A stretch of 21,274 nt of DNA from a virus: positions 1 to 21,274 of IMG/VR virus record IMGVR_UViG_3300012920_000342; one strand, 5' to 3'. Positions within the stretch are counted from its first letter, which is position 1. Every line of letters begins with the position of its first letter. Made by a program: the position numbers and the translations under genes. Of this stretch, positions 9,501-21,126 are shown one piece after another. A model generated the notes under the pieces. It was not told the DNA's origin. It made no database searches and saw nothing but the letters and a program-made list of their open reading frames with translations.

Positions 9501-9509
9501 ATATATACA

Positions 9510-9540
9510 AGTGCTGGCAGAAACTTTGTCGGCACTTTTT
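9510..9540 (+). terminator. Intrinsic terminator, second of a tandem pair
   Basis: AGTGCTGGC (9510-9518) pairs with GTCGGCACT (9528-9536), nine pairs including two G-T, with a 9-base loop and a T run to 9540. It isolates the glycan operon from the pseudoazurin cassette. Confidence 0.8.
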
Positions 9541-9568: not shown

Positions 9569-9748
9569 ATGGCACGAGGCGTCGTCTTTGCTTGCGCTAG
9601 TGCGCTTGCTAATGCTTTTTCTCGTTATGACAATATCAGCGAGAGAGAACTGGACATTTATGTCCGCACTGAATATGGCCAAAACTGGCAGTGGGCGAAA
9701 ACATTTTATGAAATGAAGGGTCGCTTTCCACAATCAAGAGAAGTTTAA
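9569..9748 (+). CDS. Small protein, unknown function
   Basis: 59 residues, with a clean AGGAG (9558-9562) before ATG 9569. It starts MARGVVFACASALANAFSRY, a mildly hydrophobic helix, followed by a charged part with YGQNWQWAKTFYEMKGRFPQ. No family recognised. It is the first gene after the tandem terminators and heads the pseudoazurin cassette. Confidence 0.7.
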   Translation: MARGVVFACASALANAFSRYDNISERELDIYVRTEYGQNWQWAKTFYEMKGRFPQSREV

Positions 9749-9761
9749 GGGAGAATATAAC

Positions 9762-9944
9762 TTGTCCGAACTAGCACTAACATATATCGTAAATCCGCTA
9801 GACAATTTTTTTAAGAGCGTCGATAGGTTCTTTATGACAGTAGGCTATGCAAGAGCCGCTGCCGAACTTTCACGCATGGGTAAACACGAAGAAGCAAAGC
9901 AACTTTTGGCTGAAAAGTTAAGACTTGAGATGGAGACAAAATAA
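9762..9944 (+). CDS. Small helical protein, unknown function
   Basis: 60 residues from TTG 9762, supported by GGGAG at about 9749-9753. It has VNPLDNFFKSVDRFFMTVGYARAAAELSRMG, then an Ala/Lys/Glu helix. Short proteins of this type (a VNP segment, then AR/RAAAEL helix) occur in marine phages, but I know no function. The stop overlaps the pseudoazurin ATG (TAATG), so the two are coupled. Confidence 0.7.
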   Translation: MSELALTYIVNPLDNFFKSVDRFFMTVGYARAAAELSRMGKHEEAKQLLAEKLRLEMETK

Positions 9945-10372
9945 TGAAAACACTTGCATTTTATCTAACCGCATTTGCTATCATGTTCGCTGTTGGCACT
10001 GCTAACGCAATGACAATCGAAATGCTGAACAAAGATGCAGATGGCAACAAGATGATCTATAGTGAAGAGATTGCTCATATTGCTGTAGGCGAATCTATCA
10101 CATGGGTACCGACAGATAAGGGTCACAATGTAGAAATCATTGCCGCACCCGAAGGTTTCGATATTCCGAAGAAGTCGAAGAATAGTAAAGAAGTGACAAT
10201 TGAGTTCACAGTACCAGGCGTATACTACTACTGGTGTACACCACACAAAGGCATGGGCATGATCGGTCTTGTCGTTGTTGGTGAAGATACACATAACAAA
10301 GATGCAGTAGCCAAAGCAAAAGCACTTGGTAAGTCTAAGAAGAAACTCAAGAAGCTATTGGAGGATATCTAA
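9944..10372 (+). CDS. Pseudoazurin (secreted blue copper protein)
   Basis: 142 residues. A Sec signal peptide is clear: MK, a hydrophobic core, and an Ala-Asn-Ala cleavage site at about residues 20-22. The mature part matches pseudoazurin throughout: MLNKDADG, VPTDKGHNVE, TPGVYYYWCTPH-like strand and HKGMGMIGLVVVG. All four type 1 copper ligands are present: His61, Cys98, His101 and Met106 (C+3, C+8 spacing as in the family). The Lys-rich C-terminal helix is also typical. Pseudoazurins carry electrons in the periplasm to nitrite or nitrous oxide reductase, cytochrome c peroxidase or other partners. In a phage this is an auxiliary metabolic gene. GGAG at 9932-9935 precedes the ATG. Confidence 0.93.
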   Translation: MKTLAFYLTAFAIMFAVGTANAMTIEMLNKDADGNKMIYSEEIAHIAVGESITWVPTDKGHNVEIIAAPEGFDIPKKSKNSKEVTIEFTVPGVYYYWCTPHKGMGMIGLVVVGEDTHNKDAVAKAKALGKSKKKLKKLLEDI

Positions 10373-10538: not shown

Positions 10539-10601
10539 ATGTGGCCGTATACACAGGAAGAAAATGACTATTTGTCAGAAAAAAATCAAAAGAGGGCTTG
10601 A
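10539..10601 (+). CDS. 20-residue microprotein
   Basis: ATG 10539 follows AGGGAG closely (about 10526-10531) and encodes MWPYTQEENDYLSEKNQKRA. The WPYTxEE start looks like a conserved small motif, but I cannot name a family. Its TGA (10599-10601) is inside both the loop of the terminator and the TTGACA of the next promoter. Confidence 0.5.
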   Translation: MWPYTQEENDYLSEKNQKRA

Positions 10602-10618
10602 CATGGCCCTCTTTTTTT
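10591..10618 (+). terminator. Strong intrinsic terminator closing the pseudoazurin cassette
   Basis: AGAGGGC (10591-10597) pairs perfectly with GCCCTCT (10606-10612), with an 8-base loop TTGACATG and a T run to 10618. The loop carries the -35 hexamer of the next promoter. Confidence 0.88.
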
Positions 10619-10818: not shown

Positions 10819-10935
10819 ATGCATAAATGGATTATAGGAATAGTAGTACTAGCACTTCTCGCAAAGAATGATTGGGAGATGTTTAGTTTACTACATGAGT
10901 TTTTAGTTACATGGCTTCGTAGCTCAACTGGATAG
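10819..10935 (+). CDS. 38-residue membrane microprotein overlapping a tRNA (uncertain)
   Basis: ATG 10819 lies just after the previous stop and encodes MHKWIIGIVVLALLAKNDWE followed by 18 residues. The first 15 residues could span the membrane. No good ribosome site is seen, and its last 7 codons and TAG stop (10933-10935) are inside tRNA-Arg, so it may be chance or a coupled gene with a tRNA-borne end. Confidence 0.35.
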   Translation: MHKWIIGIVVLALLAKNDWEMFSLLHEFLVTWLRSSTG

Positions 10936-10989
10936 AGCAACAGACTTCTAATCTGTAGGTTGCAGGTTCGAGTCCTGCCGAAGTCGCCA
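10913..10989 (+). tRNA. tRNA-Arg(TCT)
   Basis: A full cloverleaf with encoded CCA (10987-10989). Acceptor GGCTTCG pairs with CGAAGTC; the anticodon stem ACAGA/TCTGT holds loop CTTCTAA, giving anticodon TCT, which reads AGA. The T arm is GCAGGTTCGAGTCCTGC. AGA is the main arginine codon in many genes here, so it likely supplies a codon the host uses little. Confidence 0.95.
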
Positions 10990-10993
10990 ATAT

Positions 10994-11083
10994 GGAGAGT
11001 TGGCAGAGCGGTTGAATGCACCGGTCTTGAAAACCGGCAAAGTTGAAAAACTTTCGAGAGTTCGAATCTCTCACTCTCCGCCA
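10994..11083 (+). tRNA. tRNA-Ser(TGA)
   Basis: 90 bases with the long variable arm of a class II tRNA and encoded CCA (11081-11083). Acceptor GGAGAGT pairs with ACTCTCC; the anticodon stem CCGGT/ACCGG holds loop CTTGAAA, so the anticodon is TGA, reading TCA. Only 4 bases separate it from tRNA-Arg, so both probably come from one transcript. Confidence 0.95.
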
Positions 11084-11881: not shown

Positions 11882-12032
11882 ACTACATAAAGCAAACATC
11901 GAAGTATATCTGCAAAATCCTGCAGGTATCGGTGAACACTCTGATATCGTTGAAGCAATGGAAAAAGAACTAAACACTATTGCACACTACGAAGATCAAC
12001 TCGAGGTGCTTGACAAATACTTTGCGGACTGA
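11829..12032 (+). CDS. Conserved marine-phage protein, helical, unknown function
   Basis: 67 residues from ATG 11829 after GGAGAAG. The pattern GHIELHKANIEVYLQNPAGIGEHSD followed by VEAMEKELNTIAHYEDQLEVLDKYF resembles a small protein I recall from T4-like cyanophages and other marine phages. It is helical with a likely coiled-coil C-terminal half. Function unknown. Codons near its end supply the -35 of a consensus promoter (12010-12038). Confidence 0.75.
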   Translation: MRQTLIKALRQHAIGHIELHKANIEVYLQNPAGIGEHSDIVEAMEKELNTIAHYEDQLEVLDKYFAD

Positions 12033-12038
12033 TATAAT
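12010..12038 (+). promoter_or_regulatory. Perfect consensus promoter overlapping the glutaredoxin start
   Basis: TTGACA (12010-12015), exactly 17 bases, TATAAT (12033-12038). All 12 bases match the sigma-70 consensus. The -10 shares two bases with the glutaredoxin ATG (12037), so RNA started near 12045 would lack that start codon. Confidence 0.5.
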
Positions 12039-12279
12039 GCCATATGTAATTTACGGAAGAGAAGATTGTAGTTATTGTCGTATGGCGAAGCGATTCTTAG
12101 ATGACAGACAAGAAGAGTTTCGCTATATCGATATTAGTCAAGATGATTTATCGAAGGCATATCTTCAAGCTGAGGGACACAAAACTGTTCCTCAGATTTA
12201 TGCTAACGGCACACATATTGGTGGCTACACTGATCTGGTATCACTTTTTGGTGAAGGCTCTTATGGAGACAACGCATAA
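12037..12279 (+). CDS. grx: Glutaredoxin
   Basis: 80 residues from ATG 12037 (an upstream in-frame start at 11980 would lie deep in the previous gene). The active site CSYC (Cys11-Cys14), the cis-proline loop TVPQIY and the glutathione-binding GGYTDL are all present. Glutaredoxins use glutathione to reduce disulfides; in T4 the equivalent feeds ribonucleotide reductase. A class II reductase is encoded in this window, and the neighbouring oxygenases could also benefit. The stop overlaps the next ATG (TAATG). Confidence 0.93.
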   Translation: MPYVIYGREDCSYCRMAKRFLDDRQEEFRYIDISQDDLSKAYLQAEGHKTVPQIYANGTHIGGYTDLVSLFGEGSYGDNA

Positions 12280-12887
12280 TGATGAAACTTGATTACTTGT
12301 TTCCTAGACCAGTATTTCATTCAGAACCCGATTTTGATGTATCTAGGTTGAAAGCCTTTTACAATAAAATCAGGGAACTGGATGAGACTGGTGCGAGGCA
12401 AAGTAATATAGGTGGATGGCAGTCTAATCTAATCAACATAGATGAATATGAAACAACTAGAGATTTTAGAGATGTTGTAGAAGAAAACATAAACAGTATG
12501 TTGAGTGAGTTTGGAGTAGTTAGAGCAAGATTTAAAATGTCGGCTATGTGGCTCAACTGTAATATTAATGACAATACGAATAGTGATCATATTCACGGGC
12601 CTGCATTCTTATCTGGAACATACTACATAAAAGTTCCTGAATCTTTAGAAGAAACAGATGATGGTGCGCTTGTCATAGCTGATACTTTTGATCAACAATA
12701 TTATAAGAATGCTTTGCTTTTATGTTGTGATCAGCCAACAAATCTGAGTGCATCTGAAGTGTCATATATTCCAAAAGAAGGCAAACTCATAGTCTTTCCA
12801 GCAAATCAAAGACACAGAGTAACACCAACTTATGTCAATGAAGAACGCATTAGTACAAGTTTTGATTTCGATTTGGAGTATTTCTAA
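12279..12887 (+). CDS. 2OG-Fe(II) oxygenase, Oxy_5 type
   Basis: 202 residues (ATG 12282 is an alternative start). Putative iron ligands are His104 and His106 in DHIHGPAFLSGTYYIKVP, and His179 in PANQRHRV; Arg190 in NEERISTSFDF would bind 2-oxoglutarate. The HxH plus FLSG-YY pattern is that of the 2OG-FeII_Oxy_5 family found in many marine phages. These enzymes hydroxylate substrates using O2 and 2-oxoglutarate; the substrate is unknown. Confidence 0.83.
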   Translation: MMKLDYLFPRPVFHSEPDFDVSRLKAFYNKIRELDETGARQSNIGGWQSNLINIDEYETTRDFRDVVEENINSMLSEFGVVRARFKMSAMWLNCNINDNTNSDHIHGPAFLSGTYYIKVPESLEETDDGALVIADTFDQQYYKNALLLCCDQPTNLSASEVSYIPKEGKLIVFPANQRHRVTPTYVNEERISTSFDFDLEYF

Positions 12888-13456
12888 TGGATTATAAACT
12901 TTGGGATATTGAATTTATAGAAGCTAACAAAGATACTTTTGTAGAACAGTGTCATATGTTTCATAAAGCTATTCAAGAATCAGTTGATGATGAAGATACG
13001 ACAAGAGCATATAGAAAGTATAATATATTTCAAGTAGCTGGTGGTAGTTATGGATTTTACATCTTGTATAAAACTGTCATACAAAATATACGAGAATATG
13101 TTGGAGATGACAGACCACTTTGGATGAGCGGTTGGTTGAACTTTCATGATCCATCAGAAGTACTAGATTGGCATAGTCATTATGGTAGTTTGTGTCATGG
13201 TTATTTAAGCATTGATCCGAAAAACACAACCACAAAATTTGAAGGCTATGATATTGAAAACAAGGTCGGAAGAATGTATCTGGGCCCTAGTTATAGAGAA
13301 CATAAAGTCGTAGTCAATGAGCCCTATGAGGGATATAGAATTACACTAGGATTTGATGTTAGTGATGGCACAGATGAAGATGGTGACGGTCATCTGTTAA
13401 TTAATACTAAAGAAACATCTGGACACGAATACCAATATTGTTTACCAGTACCATAA
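12887..13456 (+). CDS. 2OG-Fe(II) oxygenase-like protein
   Basis: 189 residues, coupled to the previous gene by TAATG. LDWHSHYGSLCHGYLSID offers His96 and His98, EHKVVV offers His139, and GYRITLGFDV offers Arg151, the order and spacing of a double-stranded beta-helix dioxygenase. It is only distantly similar to its neighbour. Its N-terminal third is unassigned. Substrate unknown. Confidence 0.7.
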   Translation: MDYKLWDIEFIEANKDTFVEQCHMFHKAIQESVDDEDTTRAYRKYNIFQVAGGSYGFYILYKTVIQNIREYVGDDRPLWMSGWLNFHDPSEVLDWHSHYGSLCHGYLSIDPKNTTTKFEGYDIENKVGRMYLGPSYREHKVVVNEPYEGYRITLGFDVSDGTDEDGDGHLLINTKETSGHEYQYCLPVP

Positions 13457-13783: not shown

Positions 13784-14769
13784 AACTGAATATTGTTGAT
13801 GATACGAAGAAAGATGATGATGACGAGTTCTCAATGGGGCCGACAATAGACGGCACCTATACAGATGCCAAAGGTGGCACTGAACTGATGAACAAAGCAC
13901 TGTACGAGCGAGTAGACAATGACTTGCTCGACCAGTTCTATCTTATCAAGTCTAGAGTTCGGTGGACCGATCCTAAAAGACCAAATCTTCTATGGCTTCA
14001 TGACACTTGGGATGATCCTGAGTCGCAACACCTGAAAGATGCAGAAGCAAGAAAGCGTTTTGCAAAACTGATCTTTGTGTCGAACTATCAACTTCAAACA
14101 TACAATCTTGCACTTGGTGTTCCGTATCACGAATCATTCGTTATGAAAAATGCGATTGACCCCATTCCGTATGCAGAGAAGCCTAAAGATCGAATCAATC
14201 TTATCTATCACACAACACCTCATCGTGGACTAAACATTGCAGTAGCGGCTATGAAAGAACTGGCTAAACTGCATGGTGATAAGATTCATCTTGACGTATA
14301 TTCTTCTTTCGAGGCGTATGGTTGGCCTGATAGAGATAAGCCATACTTGAGTTTGTTCGATGAGATTCGTGAGCATCCAAATATGACATATCATGGCTTT
14401 CAGGAAAATAGTGTTGTTCGTGAAGCACTACAGAAAGCACACATCTATGCATATCCTAACATATGGCCCGAGACATCTTGTATCTCTGCTATCGAAGCAA
14501 TGTCTGCAGGCTGTCAAGTCGTGTGTCCTAATCACGCCGCTCTACCAGAAACAACTGGTGGTTTTGCCACGATGTATCAGTTTAGTGAAGATATGAATCA
14601 ACATGCGAATGTCTTTGCTAACTTCTTGAACGCCTCTATTGAAAACCACAACTCAGAAGACATGCAGAGAAAAATGGCTTTCCAGAAGAACTGGACTGAT
14701 AACTTCTACAACTGGGATCTAAGATCGGCAGAGTGGACAGGTCTTCTTCAAGGACTTCTGAAGTCATGA
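13780..14769 (+). CDS. GT4-type (GT-B) glycosyltransferase
   Basis: 329 residues. The Rossmann-like C-terminal half has INLIYHTTPHRGLNIAV (about 139-155), and the sugar-nucleotide motif PETSCISAIEAMSAGC with Glu231 and Glu239 (EX7E). LWLHDTWDDP and LIFVSNYQ in the N-terminal half also fit GT4 enzymes. It lies among oxygenase genes rather than with the glycan cassette at 5743-9460, but could act on the same product. Coupled both upstream and downstream by ATGA. Confidence 0.85.
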   Translation: MKLNIVDDTKKDDDDEFSMGPTIDGTYTDAKGGTELMNKALYERVDNDLLDQFYLIKSRVRWTDPKRPNLLWLHDTWDDPESQHLKDAEARKRFAKLIFVSNYQLQTYNLALGVPYHESFVMKNAIDPIPYAEKPKDRINLIYHTTPHRGLNIAVAAMKELAKLHGDKIHLDVYSSFEAYGWPDRDKPYLSLFDEIREHPNMTYHGFQENSVVREALQKAHIYAYPNIWPETSCISAIEAMSAGCQVVCPNHAALPETTGGFATMYQFSEDMNQHANVFANFLNASIENHNSEDMQRKMAFQKNWTDNFYNWDLRSAEWTGLLQGLLKS

Positions 14770-15347
14770 TCTATGACGTAATCGATGACGTTATGCCCGA
14801 TCACTTTAACAAGTATATGATCGAAGCCCTTATACAGGTTAATAGATGGCGTCAAGCATTACCCGAATTGCATTCAGTTAAAAAGGACACATTGGTTGAT
14901 GATGCAGGAATGACAATGCTATCATTTCCAAATGAAGATGAAGACCACAAACTGAATCGTCTCAATATTTTATGTGATGTTATTCTGAATGGCGCTTTAG
15001 AAAGACACTCTTCTATTGGACGTTTTGAGAATTTTGATGTAGATAGATATGTGTTCAATCTTTACAATAGAAATTCTGTCTGTGATTTTCATCAAGATGT
15101 AACTCTTACTGGATTAGATCCTGGTCAGTATCTATCGACTTTCATTTATTCATTTAATGACTGTGATGGATACAATATCATTGCTGATGAAAAAATTGAA
15201 AGTAAAGCTGGTAGACTTATTTTATTTCCTAGTAATGTTTCACATAAAGCATATCCACCAAAGAATCAACCTCATAGATACTCATTAAACTGTCAATTCA
15301 AATATAGTTCATATTTCAGATACAATGATAATTACGGAACAGAGTAA
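14766..15347 (+). CDS. 2OG-Fe(II) oxygenase
   Basis: 193 residues from ATG 14766 (the longer frame from 14733 lies inside the transferase). The HxD pair is His109-Asp111 in DFHQDVTLTG, the distal ligand is His160 in NVSHKAYPP, and Arg171 in PHRYSLNCQF is the likely 2-oxoglutarate anchor. This follows the prolyl-4-hydroxylase-like layout. Substrate unknown; it is directly coupled to a glycosyltransferase, so sugar or protein hydroxylation are both possible. Confidence 0.78.
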   Translation: MIYDVIDDVMPDHFNKYMIEALIQVNRWRQALPELHSVKKDTLVDDAGMTMLSFPNEDEDHKLNRLNILCDVILNGALERHSSIGRFENFDVDRYVFNLYNRNSVCDFHQDVTLTGLDPGQYLSTFIYSFNDCDGYNIIADEKIESKAGRLILFPSNVSHKAYPPKNQPHRYSLNCQFKYSSYFRYNDNYGTE

Positions 15348-15875
15348 ATGAACATAGAAGTCATTGACAATTTTTTAGACCCACATGAGTTTGAAGAACT
15401 GAAAGATTTCATTTTTCATCCTGATGAAAACAGTAACATGAGAATGAATTGGGTTATGAATTATGGCGTGACAAATTCTGATGAAGATTCTTTTCAGTTC
15501 AATCATATGTTTTATGCGGATGGCGCACCACAATCTGATCAAATGAACTTATTAGTTCCTATTCTGACAAAAATACCAAATTTATTGTCAATGCTCAGAA
15601 TAAAAGCAAATCTTTTGACTAGAACATTAAATCATGAACAGCATGGATATCATGTTGATATGCATGACGCACAAGGACTTCCTCACAAGTCTGCGATATT
15701 CTATTGCAATACAAACAATGGATGGACACAGTTTGAGAATGGCACAAAAGTAGAAAGCATTGCAAACAGAATGGTCATGTTTGACGGACAACTAAAACAT
15801 TGTAGTGTGAGTCAAACAGATGAACCGTTTAGGGTTGTGATAAATTTTGTTTACATAGAAAAGCGAGTGATGTAA
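15348..15875 (+). CDS. 2OG-Fe(II) oxygenase, related to the one at 20596
   Basis: 175 residues. It opens with VIDNFLDPHEFEELKDFI, the usual N-terminal helix-strand of phage prolyl-hydroxylase-like proteins. Ligands are His102-x-Asp104 (YHVDMHD), His151 (LKHCSVSQT) and Arg162 (EPFRVVINF). The stretch NTNNGWTQFENGTKVESIAN closely parallels the fifth oxygenase (20596-21126), so the two look like paralogues within this genome. Substrate unknown. Confidence 0.82.
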   Translation: MNIEVIDNFLDPHEFEELKDFIFHPDENSNMRMNWVMNYGVTNSDEDSFQFNHMFYADGAPQSDQMNLLVPILTKIPNLLSMLRIKANLLTRTLNHEQHGYHVDMHDAQGLPHKSAIFYCNTNNGWTQFENGTKVESIANRMVMFDGQLKHCSVSQTDEPFRVVINFVYIEKRVM

Positions 15876-20123: not shown

Positions 20124-20596
20124 TGTCTGCCTTTGTGATTGAAACTTCTGTTCTTGAAAACTATGCTGCCCATGATTCTGATTGGGATGGTGAGACAATG
20201 CGCTGGAAGCCCAAAGTCGGTTCTCGCTACATTGTCGAAACTGGCAATATGGCAGATGTTCGTGAGGTTCAGAATTTAGTGACATCTGAATCTGACTCGC
20301 TTATCGAGTCTACCTCTGACATCTATCAGGTCGAAGATTCTAACTGGGAGTCCGAGTTTGTTAAGATGCAGAAAGAGTATGACCCTCACGGTTGGGACAC
20401 GATCTACCTCGATCCTGTCATCCGTCGTGGTAAAAACTCTCACTGGTTTATGAAGCGTGGCTACATCGCCGGCAAGCACCTCGAAGATGACGAAAAGTTT
20501 GGTCATCTTGCTGGTAAGTTTGTCGGTTGGGTTGACAATCTCACAACTGGCGAATGTGTTCTTAAAATCGAAGGTGATAAAAGAGAGGTACTTTAA
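20123..20596 (+). CDS. Phage protein, unknown function
   Basis: 157 residues. It starts MSAFVIETSVLENYAAHDSD and contains MRWKPKVGSRYIVETGN and DPHGWDTIYLDPVIRRGKNSHW. The ENYAAHD and W-K-x-K-G-S-x-Y-I-V pattern recalls small phage proteins of unknown role. Arginine is almost always CGT/CGC here, as in the preceding gene. TAATG coupling to the oxygenase that follows. Confidence 0.65.
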   Translation: MSAFVIETSVLENYAAHDSDWDGETMRWKPKVGSRYIVETGNMADVREVQNLVTSESDSLIESTSDIYQVEDSNWESEFVKMQKEYDPHGWDTIYLDPVIRRGKNSHWFMKRGYIAGKHLEDDEKFGHLAGKFVGWVDNLTTGECVLKIEGDKREVL

Positions 20597-21126
20597 TGGA
20601 AGTAACACCACATAAAATCATAGATAACTTTTTGTCAGAAGAAGAACATCAAGATATCTATAGAAGGCTTATGCATGAGCAAATGCCACTAGAAGAAATG
20701 GGACAAACAGTGCCAATGTATTTCTCAGAAAATAGTGCATATCCAGGTGATACAGATGGTGGAGGTCACTGGTATAATCCACTTTATTTAGATCCACATC
20801 CAGTAAGTGACCACTTTGAGCCTATCTGTTATCCTATTCTAAAAAATGTAGCTGTCAAAGCTGTTGTTCGTGCTAGAGTCAATTGGTACTATAAAACACC
20901 AGAAATTATTGAACATGCTATGCATACAGATTTAGATTCTCCTATCGATAATCTTTTATATTATGTAAACACTAATGATGGATATACAAAGCTTCAATGT
21001 GGTACTAAAATCGAAAGTATCGCTAATCGGGCGGTATTCTTTCAAGGACATTTAGATCACTGTAGTACGACTACAACTGATCAACTACTAAGATGTAATG
21101 TCAACATTAATTTTATAGCACACTAG
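20596..21126 (+). CDS. 2OG-Fe(II) oxygenase, paralogue of the one at 15348
   Basis: 176 residues. IIDNFLSEEEHQDIYRRL opens the protein; ligands are His110-x-Asp112 (AMHTDLD), His155 (LDHCSTTTT) and Arg166 (LLRCNVNINF). YYVNTNDGYTKLQCGTKIES parallels NTNNGWTQFENGTKVES in the protein at 15348-15875. Codons revert to the AGA-rich phage style right after two host-like genes, so it may have a different history. Substrate unknown. Confidence 0.83.
   Translation: MEVTPHKIIDNFLSEEEHQDIYRRLMHEQMPLEEMGQTVPMYFSENSAYPGDTDGGGHWYNPLYLDPHPVSDHFEPICYPILKNVAVKAVVRARVNWYYKTPEIIEHAMHTDLDSPIDNLLYYVNTNDGYTKLQCGTKIESIANRAVFFQGHLDHCSTTTTDQLLRCNVNINFIAH

Follow-up and report, generated by a model that had tools for sequence, protein, structure and literature searches.

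Can a phage supply its host with a component of the respiratory chain? We address this question for a 21,274 nt stretch of viral DNA (IMG/VR record IMGVR_UViG_3300012920_000342), referred to here as the window. The initial annotation, made from the letters of this DNA, described one open reading frame as encoding a pseudoazurin in which the four ligands for type 1 copper are intact and a Sec signal peptide ends in ANA. It further proposed that the protein is phage-encoded, that no such phage protein was known to have been described, and that it might keep host respiration or denitrification running during infection.

The reading frame is complete, with 142 codons between an ATG start and a TAA stop. 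Its product matches the Pfam Copper-bind family (2.6e-15) and the NCBIfam pseudoazurin model TIGR02375 (107.4 bits). The latter score is below the curated cut-off of 109.85 bits, which is a threshold for automatic annotation and not a biochemical feature. Ten other viral and SAR116-type members were tested and all ten were also under the cut-off (99.7-108 bits). Since the window protein and all of these relatives miss it narrowly, the viral/SAR116-type subfamily is, by these scores, a slightly divergent branch of the pseudoazurins. In a sequence search of the PDB the top matches were all pseudoazurins (7e-25 and weaker). The AlphaFold2 model predicts a cupredoxin barrel followed by two C-terminal helices (residues 119-123 and 130-141). 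Its 27 best structural matches in the PDB are pseudoazurins, with TM scores of ~0.85-0.90 by target length, whereas plastocyanin structures reach only ~0.75. A plastocyanin label was dropped; the score against TIGR02656 was 38.3 bits, short of the 87.85 bit cut-off, and the C-terminal helices are present. Taken together, the modelled fold, the C-terminal helices and the phylogeny identify the window protein as a pseudoazurin. Ligand spacing, length and the two C-terminal helices are shared with the bacterial proteins of the family (TIGR02375; 1paz, 1bqk, 1adw and 3tu6; TM ~0.88-0.90). Conversely, identity to these proteins is 36-42%, residues W97 and K102 replace K and Y beside the ligands, the median protein of the subfamily is basic rather than acidic, and subfamily scores of about 100-108 bits sit just under the curated cut-off.

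The ligands His61, Cys98, His101 and Met106 are all present, with the spacing C-x2-H-x4-M, and are invariant in 50 of 50 distinct viral homologues and in 73 bacterial homologues. As a member of this family, the protein should bind copper. W97 and K102 mark its subfamily off from the classical pseudoazurins. Thus, the residue before the copper cysteine is Trp in 44 of the 50 viral proteins and Lys in most classical pseudoazurins; a Lys at this position has been implicated in docking to NirK. Invariance among the viral proteins extends to the surroundings of His101 and to a patch of lysines (K59, K77, K79, K82 and K102). At the N-terminus, a predicted Sec-type signal closes with ANA at residues 20-22, as read from the sequence. 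A small-x-small motif occupies the predicted cleavage site in each of the 50 distinct viral proteins (strictly AxA in 36), and secretion to the periplasm via Sec is predicted. The assignment to pseudoazurin made in the initial annotation was thus upheld, and the sequence features of its putative signal peptide are present.

A secreted protein that is expected to bind copper might serve copper handling, by sequestering periplasmic copper or buffering redox stress in infection, and not respiratory electron transport. A glutaredoxin-like gene in the window would fit such a function. However, the invariant surroundings of His101 and the lysine patch exceed what copper binding alone would need, and no copper transport or resistance gene was recognised nearby. 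We regard copper handling as improbable.

The coordinates of the gene, its key elements and its neighbours are collected in Table 1. Between two predicted intrinsic terminators, the first of which would close the upstream transcript, the operon runs in the order small ORF, c1, pseudoazurin, DUF3563. Stop and start codons overlap by 1 nt (TAATG) at both ends of the pseudoazurin gene, with c1 upstream and with the DUF3563 gene downstream. The c1 gene is a conserved neighbour of the pseudoazurin gene; no Pfam match was found for the c1 protein. The c1 and DUF3563 proteins also accompany pseudoazurin where the genomic surroundings are unrelated, and stop and start codons often overlap there; in five loci (L001, L004, L026, L054 and L056) these companions lie upstream of the pseudoazurin gene. 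Downstream of the operon are neighbouring genes for tRNA-Arg(TCT) (10913-10989) and tRNA-Ser(TGA) (10994-11083).

Table 1. Position of the pseudoazurin gene, its elements and the flanking features in the window.
Feature	Coordinates	Strand	Details
Intrinsic terminator (predicted), left operon border	9509-9537	+	13-bp stem and T tail; -16.4 kcal/mol, z -5.15
Small ORF, 59 aa, first operon gene	9569-9748	+	Homologues in the same place in L188, L194, L190 and L061
Small ORF c1, 60 aa, TTG start	9762-9944	+	Cluster c1, in 29 viral loci
Pseudoazurin gene, 142 aa	9944-10372	+	TIGR02375, E=3.3e-31; PDB pseudoazurins; model mean pLDDT 90.9
Predicted signal peptide, residues 1-22 (...GTANA)	9944-10009	+	Hydrophobic core, A-x-A; low-confidence helix in model
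His61 codon, copper ligand	10124-10126	+	Same residue in all 50 viral and all 73 bacterial homologues
Ligand loop Cys98-x2-His101-x4-Met106 (CTPHKGMGM)	10235-10261	+	Ligands invariant
Cys98 codon, copper ligand	10235-10237	+	Invariant in viral and bacterial homologues
DUF3563 small protein, 51 aa	10372-10527	+	PF12086, 8.8e-9
Intrinsic terminator (predicted), right operon border	10588-10615	+	11-bp stem and T run; -17 kcal/mol, z -3.86

Is the gene part of a phage genome? Its origin is bacterial and the window, a fragment, derives from a metagenome, as would also be expected of a bacterial gene assigned to a virus by a contig join or a binning error. Against this, the window also encodes T4-type primase, RNase H and DUF6433 proteins, as well as ThyX and a ribonucleotide reductase of class II. 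In three sister phages (L188/L282, L194/L288 and L190/L292), whose larger surrounding genes are mostly ~65-90% identical to those of the window at the protein level, c1 directly abuts the DUF3563 gene and the pseudoazurin gene is absent. On an independent contig (L061) the pseudoazurin gene is again found between c1 and DUF3563, in the same order as in the window. This exact pair of occupied and empty sites rules out a contig join, the objection that the initial annotation had itself raised. With ~70 viral contigs bearing the gene, some of them with gp23, sheath, portal, terminase or polymerase genes, bacterial contamination was rejected and misassignment is exceedingly improbable. The pseudoazurin gene is borne by phage DNA. 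Elsewhere in the window, reading alone pointed to one glutaredoxin-like gene and to several that probably encode 2OG-Fe(II) oxygenases (12031-12279, 12279-13456, 14733-15875 and 20596-21126).

The initial annotation had suggested looking for viral homologues beside phage genes, and these proved to be widespread. Scanning IMG/VR recovered homologues on 70 contigs, with identities of 52-79% in nearly all cases. The viral copies occupy different genomic contexts, including sites with NrdB or NrdJ genes on one side and RNase H on the other, and sites between regA/Hsp20 and the gp43 polymerase. A T4-like gp43 polymerase is encoded in 27 of 50 homologue-bearing records and a gp23 capsid gene in 5 of the 30 tested. 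On one contig (L169) a run of T4-type virion genes, by inspection terminase, sheath, tube, portal, protease, scaffold and capsid, lies upstream of the pseudoazurin gene. Carriers of the intact gene are a T4-like phage of marine origin and several dozen relatives. On other homologue-bearing contigs the tail sheath belongs to a different family, or the polymerase is of the family A type; hence, more than one phage lineage has acquired the gene. When relatives were picked by a neighbouring gene, carriers of the pseudoazurin gene made up 1 of 14, 1 of a further 79 and 0 of 80 of the matches listed, rough counts in that many contigs are short and the lysozyme scan is represented by the matches listed. 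Only a minority of related phages therefore carry it, and any benefit would be conditional. Pairwise dN/dS among the viral homologues has a median of 0.17 (449 pairs) and is mostly 0.03-0.2 for close pairs, indicating purifying selection. With its bacterial relatives, accessory distribution and purifying selection, this gene has the genomic marks of a phage auxiliary metabolic gene.

Some neighbours of the viral copies can be recorded here. In one lineage the gene that immediately follows pseudoazurin encodes a 161 aa protein matching Na_Pi_cotrans (PF02690, 4.5e-16), a half-length sodium/phosphate cotransporter (L009:6529-7014), with equivalents in L010, L020-L025, L028, L029 and L070. Near gp43 in another lineage (L004:2340-2621, L007:3180-3461 and L007:3487-4500) are genes for an IscA-like Fe-S biogenesis protein (PF01521) and a PnrA-like ABC substrate-binding protein (PF02608).

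The T4 late promoter motif TATAAATA does not occur within the window, and late-promoter control of its pseudoazurin gene was rejected. Among homologues, TATAAATA is found no more than 800 nt upstream of the gene in 25 of 61 cases against ~5 expected (0.08 per 800 nt, from the frequency of the motif in the same loci), counts that are not independent as the loci are related. In one lineage (L009, L016, L021 and L027-L034) the motif recurs upstream of the gene at conserved distances of 254-526 nt, and this suggests late expression there.

Phage plastocyanins that support host photosynthesis are known from cyanophages. Among 50,697 reference phages, these cyanophage proteins were the only matches to the window protein, at no more than 36% identity. 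The cyanophage plastocyanin (PetE, phrog_515; T4-like Kyanoviridae) is likewise a phage-borne, secreted type 1 copper carrier of T4-like marine phages. The match to it (33-36% identity) spans residues 1-112 and stops before the C-terminal helices. Its gene lies between gp16 and gp17, accompanied in S-SSM5 by PTOX, gnd and zwf, and serves photosynthesis. Here, in contrast, the protein is a pseudoazurin, the phages are those of presumably heterotrophic bacteria, and the genomic sites are others. In the open-access literature, to which our search was confined, we found nothing relevant on phage pseudoazurin, cupredoxin or azurin auxiliary metabolic genes. The supposition that phage pseudoazurin was undescribed is therefore borne out, and its novelty in phages of non-photosynthetic bacteria is supported, within these collections and this literature.

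Among bacteria, members of this subfamily were found in SAR116 and, rarely, in Rhodobacteraceae, most of whose pseudoazurins are only ~40% identical. A pseudoazurin is encoded in 63 of 136 SAR116-order genomes. The SAR116 (Puniceispirillales) proteins, including those from sox operons, show 56-74% identity and share the WCTPHK motif and a Lys-rich tail; the closest (L076) is 74% identical over residues 20-129. They differ in being chromosomal and mostly without a PKK loop insertion, and some paralogues lie beside Xdh/urate oxidase genes. In the phylogenetic tree, a single clade unites the viral with the SAR116-type proteins and is separate from the classical alphaproteobacterial pseudoazurins (support 99 and 100/100). 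Members of this clade mostly have Trp97, and have Lys102, in place of the classical Lys and Tyr. They are also mostly basic, with a median pI of 8.9-9.5 compared to 5.2 for the classical proteins; the mature window protein has a pI of ~6.9. Three chromosomal copies from Ascidiaceihabitans (Rhodobacteraceae; L072, L073 and L074) group with viral copies. This grouping, in a tree with many weak forks, suggests exchange of the gene between phages and hosts, in either direction. A donor tree, as the initial annotation had advised, thus placed the gene in the SAR116-type clade; the AU test rejected neither a single viral clade (p 0.26) nor a clade of viruses plus Ascidiaceihabitans (p 0.69).

The surroundings of the bacterial copies bear on function. 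Some SAR116 copies are located inside sox operons, with genes for SoxY, SoxZ, SoxC, a cytochrome c, a SoxB-like phosphoesterase and flavocytochrome c sulfide dehydrogenase (FCSD). Others adjoin genes for xanthine dehydrogenase, urate oxidase and hydroxyisourate hydrolase. Oxidations of this kind, in the periplasm or at the membrane, need an electron acceptor, and these neighbourhoods indicate that SAR116 pseudoazurins probably serve periplasmic oxidations. Divergent paralogues from SAR116 and other alphaproteobacteria (L092-L099 and L102-L106) also lie beside xanthine dehydrogenase genes, with urate oxidase, OHCU decarboxylase and HIUase among the neighbours of L092-L099, hinting at a role in purine oxidation.

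The main rival to a general electron carrier is one specific to host thiosulfate oxidation, captured from a SAR116 sox operon and taking electrons from SoxCD/SoxAX or flavocytochrome c. The closest bacterial relative and two others (L076, L077 and L080) do sit between Sox-type genes and a SoxB-like gene, and soxYZ, soxC and soxD are already known from phages (PMC8190135). These phage sulfur-oxidation genes, and dsrC, are also thought to feed the host electron chain; they differ in encoding sulfur carriers and enzymes, and azurin is unmentioned in that paper (PMC8190135). However, no sox gene was recognised beside the viral copies, the PKK insertion in the viral surface loop is missing from the sox-operon copies, and the tree does not specifically join the viral to the sox copies. 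In addition, soxZ was not detected in several gene-bearing SAR116 genomes, many of which are incomplete, so Sox may not be the sole partner. We consider an exclusively Sox-linked role unlikely.

The classical role of pseudoazurin, in Paracoccus and Alcaligenes, is to supply electrons to denitrification enzymes (PMC12423496), which here would be NirK, NirS or NosZ. Among 136 SAR116-order genomes, neither NirK nor NosZ was found over the cut-off, weak NirK matches resembling other multicopper oxidases, and the only NirS match was weak and partial, hence not convincing; the search covered this order. Denitrification is therefore unlikely if the host is SAR116. The exchange of Lys for Trp before the copper cysteine of most viral proteins also argues against it, and we judge such a role to be a poor prospect. 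Of the two functions first proposed, respiration or denitrification, the former is plausible and preferred and the latter disfavoured.

In our preferred reading, to which we assign a probability of roughly 60%, the phage supplies a periplasmic carrier that passes electrons from cytochrome bc1 and periplasmic dehydrogenases to an aerobic oxidase. A general carrier is favoured by the sox and Xdh neighbourhoods, the lack of detected denitrification enzymes noted above, the detection of COX1 in 11 of 15 pseudoazurin-bearing genomes, and the ability of cupredoxins to serve cytochrome oxidase (PMC12423496). Hyphomicrobium pseudoazurins respond to regulators (repressors) of thiosulfate oxidation (PMC12423496). 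The accessory gene would be that of a marine T4-like phage infecting a heterotrophic alphaproteobacterium. Related reference phages infect groups other than SAR116, and a search for T4 gp23 in the 136 SAR116-order genomes found nothing, which does not prove its absence. Following export by Sec, the pseudoazurin would take up copper in the periplasm. The mature protein could then act as a diffusible one-electron carrier, adding to or replacing the host pseudoazurin or cytochrome c. Electrons would pass from cytochrome bc1 and periplasmic dehydrogenases, of which the Sox proteins are the best-supported example, to an aa3-type cytochrome oxidase. Proton motive force would thus be kept up during infection, and the carrier probably keeps the infected bacterium respiring. 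A broader proposal is that phages of abundant marine heterotrophic alphaproteobacteria repeatedly acquire a haem-free pseudoazurin, sometimes exchanged with hosts, and so sustain lithoheterotrophic thiosulfate oxidation and oxygen respiration; this we advance only tentatively, and doubt more than we believe.

A cupredoxin requires only copper and can do without the many proteins that mature cytochrome c, an economy that may explain its presence in a phage. Through the phage plastocyanins, photosynthetic electron transport became the textbook example of viruses taking over host metabolism. That several myovirus lineages share a conserved pseudoazurin suggests that a similar logic extends to respiration in non-photosynthetic ocean bacteria. 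Being a single gene that is easy to express, it offers a way to test whether phages prop up the terminal respiratory chain of their hosts.
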